Of a DNA stretch of 20,540 bases, positions 1-4,087 are shown piece after piece. The translations under genes and the position numbers were made by a program. Every line of letters starts with the position of its first letter. Position 1 is the first letter of the stretch. The stretch is taken from positions 1-20,540 of the IMG/VR virus record IMGVR_UViG_3300023174_000751. One strand, written 5' to 3'. The notes under the pieces are model-generated. The model saw only the letters and a program-made list of their open reading frames with translations, did no database searches and was not told where the DNA came from. Origin of the DNA: a virus.

Positions 1-402
1 GACGGCTGCCTGAATCTGAAAGTAACCAAAGACCGGCCAGGATTCGTCCGCGCCATCTGCCAGGACGCCAAAGACCTCGGCGTCGCAAACTTGAAGAGCA
101 ACAAGGACGGAACGATCACCGTCACGATTAGCGGCGGCATAATCCGAGTGACGACGAAGGAACAGAAGCTGCAAGAGATATCAAACTTCTTCGAGCGAAT
201 CGGAACCGAGATAGGCCAGAACGACATCCGCAAAGGACTGCGGCAAGAAGGAATCGAGATCGGAAACCAAGAACTAGGGCAGGCCCTGGAGCAACTCATG
301 GCCGGCGGCTTCATCGAATTTAGGAAACTGGGGCAGAAATATCTCTACAAATTCAAGAACCAATTCATGATCGGTGACGTCAACGCATGGGAAGTGGAGT
401 AA
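1..402 (+). CDS. 3' end of a probable phage replicative ATPase/helicase (AAA or RepA-like), C-terminal winged-helix part
   Basis: The reading frame is open from the left edge to the TAA at 400-402, so this is the last 133 codons of a longer gene. No ATG lies in the visible part, and a TTG at codon 31 sits inside a continuous domain, so it is not a credible start. The first residues include VTKDRPGFVRAI. I recall this as typical of the end of the ATPase core in actinophage AAA/RepA-like proteins, where the strand is followed by a winged helix. From about residue 52 the pattern fits a winged helix: a helix near KLQEISNFFERIG, then NDIRKGLRQ, then LEQLMAGGFIEFRKLG and a terminal beta hairpin. 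Its likely role is unwinding or loading at the phage origin. The repeat-rich region directly downstream supports a replication role. The ATPase motifs would lie outside the window, so the family assignment is tentative; the coding call is firm. Confidence 0.6.
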   Translation, partial: DGCLNLKVTKDRPGFVRAICQDAKDLGVANLKSNKDGTITVTISGGIIRVTTKEQKLQEISNFFERIGTEIGQNDIRKGLRQEGIEIGNQELGQALEQLMAGGFIEFRKLGQKYLYKFKNQFMIGDVNAWEVE

Positions 403-430
403 ACAGCCTGTGGATAACTTAACTGTTCCG

Positions 431-460
431 CCGTTCCGCACCGTTCCGCACCGTTCCGCA
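431..460 (+). repeat. Three perfect 10-bp direct repeats (CCGTTCCGCA), iteron-like
   Basis: Three head-to-tail copies are identical. A degenerate half-copy (CTGTTCCG, 423-430) precedes them. Ten-base spacing is about one helical turn, so the GTTCC words would sit on one face of the DNA, as in iterons bound by an initiator. The same GTTCC word recurs downstream in the hairpin. Confidence 0.75.
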
Positions 461-485
461 GAACAGCAGGGCAAGAGCGACCAAA

Positions 486-527
486 CTGTTCCGCCGTTCC
501 CCCCCTATAAGGGGGAACGCGGAACAG
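486..527 (+). repeat. Long imperfect palindrome with a 17-bp stem
   Basis: The left arm is CTGTTCCGC (486-494), one bulged C (495), then GTTCCCCC (496-503). The right arm is GGGGGAAC (511-518) then GCGGAACAG (519-527). The seven-base loop is CCTATAA. Apart from the bulge, every base pairs. It is not followed by a T-run, so a Rho-independent terminator is not obvious. It could be an initiator or operator site, a hairpin origin, or an mRNA structure ahead of the gene starting at 556. Two further GGAACAG words follow, at 529-535 and 544-550. Confidence 0.75.
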
Positions 528-555
528 TGGAACAGCAGCCAAAGGAACAGAATAA

Positions 556-930
556 ATGAAAGATTCAAACTTCAAACCCATTTATTGCACACCCTGTGGA
601 AAACTTATCTGGGAAGGGATGACCGTCGGATTTCAGATCAGACTCGACCCCGGAACTTTGACCATTCAAGAAGAGATCATCAAACGGATCCAGGGCAGCC
701 GAACATTTGAACTACATAGAACGGCCGTATCATTTGAAGCAGGGCTGCGATCACTGAACGCCATCCAAAGAAGCAAGGGAAAGAAGCCAGTCATTCTGGC
801 CAGCCACAACTGCAGCCGGAGTAAAGAGATATTCAGATTCAAAGGGCAGGAGCCAAGCGAAGATGAGATCCCGGATTATTGGAACAGCAGGAAGAAGCCA
901 CAGCTCGAGAGCGAAGGGATACCGTTCTAA
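556..930 (+). CDS. Small putative zinc-binding phage protein of unknown function
   Basis: This 124-residue protein starts at an ATG preceded by AAAGGAA (541-547). It carries an N-terminal CxxC (C11, C14) and a later HxC (H84, C86), which together could form one zinc site. I recall small actinophage proteins with the same plan: a CxxC-G start, a central part resembling VDGFxVRxDP and a C-terminal His/Cys pair. They usually lie next to the double zinc-finger protein, as here. The stop TAA shares its last A with the ATG of the next gene (TAATG at 928-932), indicating translational coupling. No enzymatic motif is visible. The C-terminal third is charged and probably disordered. It may bind DNA or a host protein, but nothing in the sequence decides this. 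Confidence 0.8.
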   Translation: MKDSNFKPIYCTPCGKLIWEGMTVGFQIRLDPGTLTIQEEIIKRIQGSRTFELHRTAVSFEAGLRSLNAIQRSKGKKPVILASHNCSRSKEIFRFKGQEPSEDEIPDYWNSRKKPQLESEGIPF

Positions 931-2761: not shown

Positions 2762-4087
2762 ATGATCAACGAAAGCTTGAAAAGTTTGGCCACGCCAATC
2801 GACGACTTGCACACGCTGCCAGGCAATCCACGCAGGGGCGACATCGCGGCCGTTGCTCGATCGCTCGAGCGCTTCGGCCAGCGCAAGCCGATCGTTGCGA
2901 AACACAGCGACGGAACCATCATCGCCGGCAACCACACATGGCAAGCAGCGAAGCAGCTCGGCTGGAGTGAGATTGCCGTCGTTTGGACAGACGACGATGA
3001 CAACACAGCCCACGCATTCGCGCTCGCAGATAACCGAACCGCCGAACTTGGAACTTACGACGAAGACGCGCTTCGAGAGATGATTGCGCAGCTCGTAAAT
3101 GTAGATCCGGAATTAGTAAGCGACGCCGGCTATAGCCAGGAAGCGATTGCAGAGATTCTCAAGATGCCGGTGGAAAAGATTCCAATGGCCGGCGATTTAG
3201 ATGCAGCACCAGCGAAGTCAAGAACAGCGCACAGCATCGAAGGCGACACATGGATCCTCGGGCCGCACCGCCTCGTTGTTGGAGATTCAACAAACCCGGA
3301 AATTCTAAACAAGGCACTCGGCGGCAAACTTGCAGATTGCATCTTCACCGATCCACCATACAACGTTGCATACACCGGCGGAACAAATGAGAACTTAACA
3401 ATTCAGAACGACTCGATGAGCGACTTAGAATTTGAATCGTTCCTCCTTGCAACTTACGCAGCGATGTATGCAAACGCGAAAGAAGGCTGCCCGATTTATG
3501 TCTGCCACGCAGATGGAAGCAGCGTCACATTCAGATCAGCGTTCAAGACTTCCGGATTTATGCTGAAGCAAATTCTTATCTGGGTCAAAGACAACTTCAC
3601 ACTCAGCCGCCAGGATTATAACTGGCAGCACGAACCAATCATCTACGGATGGAAACCAGGAGCAGCACATCCCTGGTTTGGCCCATTCAATGACTCAACC
3701 GTTCTGGACTTCGCAACGAAGGACTTGGACACATTGAGCAAGACAGAACTTGTAAAGATAATCGAAACAGCCAGAGAATCTTCAACCATTATCCGCGAGC
3801 CACGTCCACGCAGAAATTCAGAACACCCGACCATGAAGCCCATCAACCTCATCACTCGAATATTGAGCAACTCGGCAAATCGTGACTCGTTTGTTCTGGA
3901 TCCATTTGGCGGATCAGGTTCCACACTTGTAGCAGCTCACACACTCGGAATGACTGCAGCACTTGTAGAATTAGATCCCATATATGCAGACGTCATCTGC
4001 AAGCGCTGGCAAGAACTGACTGGAATCCTTCCAATCAATGAACTCACCGGCAAGCCTTACGATTTCATAGGAAGCGACAATGCCTAA
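2762..4087 (+). CDS. ParB-like domain fused to a beta-class DNA (N4/N6) methyltransferase
   Basis: This 441-residue protein starts after a strong AGGGGG leader. Residues about 10-95 form a ParB/Srx-like domain (LPGNPRRGD, then GTIIAGNHTWQAA, then FALADNRTAEL). About 155-435 is a DNA methyltransferase. Motif IV, DPPY, is at 197-200 and the SAM-binding FGGSGST is at 382-388. The order IV, target-recognition region, I marks the beta class. HPTMKP at 355-360 is the usual helper motif before motif I. DPPY fits N6-adenine or N4-cytosine methylation. All core motifs are intact. The gene overlaps the small terminase by eight bases, so methylation is coupled to packaging genes. It likely protects phage DNA from host nucleases or marks it for packaging. 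The ParB-like part may add DNA binding or nucleotide-dependent clamping. Confidence 0.92.
   Translation: MINESLKSLATPIDDLHTLPGNPRRGDIAAVARSLERFGQRKPIVAKHSDGTIIAGNHTWQAAKQLGWSEIAVVWTDDDDNTAHAFALADNRTAELGTYDEDALREMIAQLVNVDPELVSDAGYSQEAIAEILKMPVEKIPMAGDLDAAPAKSRTAHSIEGDTWILGPHRLVVGDSTNPEILNKALGGKLADCIFTDPPYNVAYTGGTNENLTIQNDSMSDLEFESFLLATYAAMYANAKEGCPIYVCHADGSSVTFRSAFKTSGFMLKQILIWVKDNFTLSRQDYNWQHEPIIYGWKPGAAHPWFGPFNDSTVLDFATKDLDTLSKTELVKIIETARESSTIIREPRPRRNSEHPTMKPINLITRILSNSANRDSFVLDPFGGSGSTLVAAHTLGMTAALVELDPIYADVICKRWQELTGILPINELTGKPYDFIGSDNA

Follow-up and report, generated by a model that had tools for sequence, protein, structure and literature searches.

Where does replication of this phage begin, and is the start made by host DnaA or by a protein of the phage itself? 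The question is raised by the region behind a replication gene in the viral fragment IMGVR_UViG_3300023174_000751 from IMG/VR, of which we analysed positions 1-20,540 (the window, 20,540 bp). The sequence-only reading had seen there a possible origin at which replication starts with help from host DnaA. The features needed to answer the question are the following.

1-402, plus strand: 3′ end of the replication-protein gene, encoding the C-terminal 133 residues (residues 556-688 of the 688 in the intact homologue, L015)
157-354, plus strand: winged-helix (WH) domain, the proposed reader of the repeats (AlphaFold2 model, Foldseek; its tree follows the word class)
265-303, plus strand: recognition helix H3 (NQELGQALEQL...), AlphaFold2 helix 46-58 of the translation of window 130-399
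409-417, minus strand: perfect DnaA box TTATCCACA, read as TGTGGATAA, probably accessory
424-459, plus strand: four direct repeats (iterons) YGTTCCGC, at 424-431, 432-439, 442-449 and 452-459
485-528, no strand assigned: bulged hairpin with arms 485-502 and 511-528 and a loop at about 504-510
529-550, minus strand: two reverse GGAACAG units (529-535, 544-550) reaching into the next gene's ribosome-binding region
556-930, plus strand: downstream gene for a small phrog_10480-like protein with a CxxC motif (PHROG, 1.1e-9)
595-603, plus strand: relaxed DnaA-box match TGTGGAAAA inside the open reading frame 556-930, on Cys-Gly-Lys codons

Positions 403-550 are a genuine cis-element whose features are real and conserved. 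That this element is the replication origin of the phage is very probable and the best explanation of what can be read off the aligned sequences, namely which parts it has, how they are conserved and base-paired, and that WH domain and repeat word are exchanged together; from these we infer the biochemical steps proposed below.

A nucleotide search with this DNA found no match among cultured phages. Among terminases, those of Pontimonas and Streptomyces phages resemble the window's most, and actinobacterial genomes contain distant relatives, mainly of the Prim-Pol half of the replication protein, so the host of this freshwater phage is probably an actinobacterium. Pontimonas phage phiPsal1, which has the nearest cultured terminase, differs in its replication module. 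Directly upstream of the terminase genes, window 2762-4087 encodes a ParB-like N-terminal domain fused to an N6/N4 DNA methyltransferase. Four long relatives (G001, G002, G004 and G006) end at GGGGGGAGTTCAC and three of them (G001, G002 and G004) start shortly before CGCGCACCGTCGCAGTTC, and the window reads through the GGGGGGAGTTCAC/CGCGCACCGTCGCAGTTC junction at 2671-2690, with an HNH gene beside it and the terminase genes downstream; the relatives' ends at this junction, together with the window reading through it, make a cos site with a short overhang likely at about 2671-2690.

The repeats of the element are more numerous than had been thought. The three perfect 10-bp copies of CCGTTCCGCA seen earlier are indeed present at 431-460 and belong to a more extensive series of YGTTCCGC-type units (424-431, 432-439, 442-449, 452-459 and 487-494, and in reverse 519-526, 529-535 and 544-550), and the last three iterons are spaced by 10 bp. 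Two of these units lie in the arms of the hairpin, forward at 487-494 and reverse at 519-526. The hairpin itself is real, but its stem consists of 10 + 8 bp with one bulged base rather than the 17 bp first described. As DNA, the region folds better than its shuffled versions on both strands (z = -4.4 and -6.4), with 0 of 200 shuffles as good. Among the 24 sequences of the window's clade, defined by a helicase at least 84% identical, hairpin columns 487 and 526 covary perfectly (14 T-A and 10 C-G pairs, no mismatch), and the bulged base is the variable one, 495. In three relatives (L005, L022 and L030) a gene has been inserted behind the helicase, and the box, repeats and hairpin stay together as one unit beside the next gene. 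Both multiple short direct repeats and, immediately downstream of the replication gene, a conserved stem-loop are found behind the initiator gene.

An earlier relaxed GTTCC scan of viral contigs was biased because the contigs had been selected for GTTCC, and it was used as a lead only and replaced by a protein-alignment search, in which the repeats were not part of the query and which gave 80 viral loci. Those loci with enough downstream sequence carry direct repeats and a hairpin, a few of them behind an inserted gene. Six repeat words occur (YGTTCCGC, GTTCCTCC, GCGCCGAACC, YGAACCT, GTTTCCC and CGATCCGC), which are clade-specific and nearly exclusive within a locus. The hairpin arms of each class hold that class's own word and remain complementary, the 5′ arm having additional unpaired bases; for the GTTCC types the two hairpin spacers can still pair in all 13 of 13 distinct sequences. 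Across classes the loop recurs with the core CCCCCTCTTTAGAGGGG or a TATA form, and two classes have longer C-runs. Behind the helicase genes of L246, L258, L265, L267 and L086 we also observed an extended element with a second repeat array; these have in common a TTTACGCTCA-like motif in an AT-rich spacer, a region that is possibly an unwinding element.

If the words are specific to clades, which protein reads them? The window's fragment of the replication protein, which ends with a TAA stop at 400-402, is 95% identical to the intact homologue (L015:2336-4399, 688 aa), in which Pfam finds Prim-Pol (2.6e-11) and AAA_25, a RepA-like helicase (3e-9), as well as a weak MCM_C winged-helix match at the C-terminus, and no SF3/D5 helicase match. 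The AlphaFold2 model of the WH domain (pLDDT 83.5) has the order H-H-H-E-E, and its best Foldseek match is the Hop2 WH 2mh2 (E 6e-4), followed by Fur-type WH domains; Prim-Pol, helicase and C-terminal WH are thereby placed in one protein. The class-specific residues of the WH are located in the recognition helix, including the start of H3, and in the wing: class A keeps N644, E646, F/Y662 and K/R664, and class C has S/G, M/S, mostly V, and Q/H at these positions.

By the trees and near-identical pairs compared here, the repeat word follows the WH domain, not the body of the protein or the next gene. The tree of residues 1-594 (the primase-helicase body) requires 12 changes of word class, the C-terminal WH tree 7 (minimum 6) and the tree of the downstream gene 11 (minimum 5); the mean mutual information between residues and word class amounts to 0.75 for the WH versus 0.35 for the body. 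Where bodies at least 98.5% identical go with different words (L264/L051, L227/L053, L267/L051, L264/L253 and L267/L253), the WH domains are only 39-44% identical. In L053 (class A) and L227 (class C) nothing but WH and origin differs, the flanks on both sides being 90-100% identical: the difference starts just past the VSISGG codons and extends as far as the next gene's ribosome-binding site, the differing block still contains the loop core CCCCCTCTTTAGAGGGG in both, and the downstream protein is identical despite the different elements. As judged from this alignment, the pair represents a natural swap of a WH-plus-origin module. Some WH domains are 70-82% identical despite different words (the GTTTCCC, GTTCCTCC and YGTTCCGC classes), and these are also the words most alike. 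Two loci with a gene inserted between WH and repeats (L249 and L253) have class-A WH residues together with class-A words, and class-A repeats in separate lineages go with the same helix and wing residues. The co-variation of word and WH, the swaps, the WH fold and the class-specific helix and wing residues therefore make this protein, through its WH domain, the best candidate for the reader of the repeat word, though, as WH and origin adjoin, simple linkage on the DNA may account for some of the coupling.

We propose that the C-terminal WH of the phage Prim-Pol/RepA-like helicase protein would bind the YGTTCCGC repeats behind its own gene, where several protein copies would gather, melt the duplex and load their helicase part in ring form. 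The hairpin would be extruded, its stem still presenting the same word as duplex, and the conserved C-rich or TATA-type loop would mark the priming place for the Prim-Pol part. In the window's clade, the one host DnaA box may assist.

Could host DnaA instead lead, binding boxes and opening the DNA with the repeats as auxiliaries? The perfect DnaA-box complement reported seven bases past the stop is exact: in the 20,540-bp window the match at 409-417 is the 1 observed versus 0.07 expected, it is invariant in the 24 sequences of the window's clade, and it stays beside the repeats where a gene is inserted upstream. However, other clades, including ones having the same repeat word as the window, have no DnaA box at this place though they keep repeats and hairpin; the box is conserved within the window's clade only. 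The match at 595-603, put forward as a second box, exists but is explained as coding sequence for Cys-Gly-Lys. Cumulative GC skew, a proposed check, was followed in seven long relatives and does not turn at the element in any of them, which is a weak test because nearly all genes have the same direction and the element is near the contig end. DnaA-led origins normally have far more boxes than one, and instead of several conserved boxes we found one conserved box in one clade. With the box limited to one clade, the second match coding and no turn in the skew, a DnaA-led origin is therefore unlikely, in our estimate very much so, and host DnaA is possibly an accessory at most, in the window's clade only. 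What is well supported of the earlier proposal is the origin, by the co-variation of repeat and WH, by the swaps of WH and origin and by the precedents of pRN1, P4 and SaPI, and not its emphasis on DnaA; a self-sufficient initiator made of Prim-Pol, RepA-like helicase and WH appears the better model.

The element might also be an origin in which WH and word are associated merely as linked neighbours exchanged in one block, another protein reading the word. The WH-coding end does adjoin the repeats, and a single crossover pair can move both, but the other neighbour, about equally close, is decoupled from the word, L249 and L253 retain matching class-A residues and words despite the inserted gene, and the same helix and wing residues accompany class-A repeats in separate lineages, which leaves this account rather unlikely. 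Somewhat less likely again is a role in control of the downstream gene in place of an origin, the element acting in RNA or as an operator: a leader with regulatory function, an attenuator or a site of autorepression. The hairpin ends ~27 nt before the start codon, the last GGAACAG unit overlaps the ribosome-binding region and the hairpin could form in RNA (z = -5.3); yet RNA folding does not need direct repeats of the same word outside the hairpin, the T-A/C-G switches occur without G-T intermediates in the 24 sequences, and an Rfam search gave no family at gathering score, only sub-threshold miRNA-like matches to the hairpin. A site serving the downstream gene also fits poorly with a word that covaries with the WH domain, and with L053 and L227, whose downstream proteins are identical and whose elements differ. 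A DNA packaging or recombination site is suggested by the place of the element in full-length relatives, about 2.2 kb away from where their genome is inferred to end. Such a site is extremely unlikely: the cos junction is inferred at another place (window about 2671-2690), there is no integrase gene next to the element, and what the element follows is the end of the replication protein.

The proposed origin, read by the WH of its own replication protein, resembles several known systems. As in the plasmid pRN1 with its protein ORF904, Prim-Pol, helicase and C-terminal WH form one protein with a stem-loop downstream, and structure is kept while sequence varies; the pRN1 stem-loop origin lies directly downstream of the ORF904 gene and is required for replication (PMC4234260). 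Unlike the present element, pRN1 lacks iterons and has a helicase of the SF3 type, whereas here we find AAA_25, iterons and the word in the hairpin arms; the element would thus function in the manner of pRN1, but we do not class it with the pRN1 type, because the helicase matches AAA_25 and not SF3/D5. The P4 alpha protein likewise has primase, helicase and a WH origin-binding domain in one protein and binds origin repeats (PMC4234260), but its primase is of the Toprim type and no shared sequence is demonstrated. In SaPI Rep and SCCmec Cch2 the C-terminal domain of the initiator helicase binds short iterons, which lie, as here, directly downstream of its own gene, although the helicase families differ and the Cch2 inverted repeats are dispensable for binding (PMC7581432). 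For RepA of the PLE satellites of Vibrio cholerae, DNA-binding domain and iterons are swapped as a module and are experimentally cognate, and the swapping is connected with an origin-targeting nuclease of a phage (PMC8263062); the covariation of DNA-binding domain and iterons is similar here, where it is read from the sequences, and the RepA_N initiator is unrelated and lacks a fused primase or helicase (PMC8263062). RSF1010 likewise combines iterons with a RepA helicase and primes at hairpins, with RepA, RepB′ and RepC as three separate proteins (PMC4234260), as against apparently one polypeptide and a hairpin with the iteron word here. Set beside these systems, what is distinct, judging from the loci compared, is the combination of a protein in which Prim-Pol and WH are fused to a RepA-like helicase, tandem words that return in a hairpin, and six words with natural swaps. 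Among open-access papers we found no description of this origin family.

Similar arrangements occur more widely. Of 19 cultured or complete phages with related helicase or primase domains, taken from matches to these proteins and picked by hand for host diversity, so that the proportion is not a frequency estimate, 12 have the most repeat-rich window of the locus directly behind the gene, each with its own word (e.g. TATCGGCA in Verrucomicrobia phage P8625 and CGGTACA in Idiomarinaceae phage 1N2-2); two of these are weak (ct76p945 and Kc237), and the other 7 did not stand out. Salicola phage CGphi29 is a further cultured phage that shares the layout of P8625 and 1N2-2. Separately, Streptomyces phage Dagobah (L293:4272-4398) has, behind a helicase only 31% identical, a hairpin with the CTCTTTAGAG core common to the window's relatives. 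Twelve unrelated viral contigs (L083, L084, L088, L089, L105, L108, L110, L121, L125, L127, L130 and L139) each contain a pair of GTTCCA-type hairpins, one per strand, at a distance of about 214 bp, and in L083 a terminase gene is nearby; the relaxed GTTCC scan gave hits next to terminase genes.

We lean slightly towards the view that these loci represent a widespread class of phage replicon, in which one protein, made of Prim-Pol or another primase, a RepA-like helicase and a WH, recognises a private word present in tandem and in an adjacent hairpin, the WH/word cassette is exchanged between near-identical phages, and residues and words form a recognition code. If so, two known designs, iterons and stem-loop origins, would be joined in one system, many uncultured phages would gain a defined, testable origin and initiator, and phage origins could be located by looking directly behind the RepA-like helicase gene. 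The residue-word pairs would be a readable recognition code, and the natural pairs that differ almost only in WH and word are ready-made swap experiments on origin recognition and the change of specificity. Exchange of the WH/word cassette would perhaps let these phages escape incompatibility or origin-targeting nucleases.
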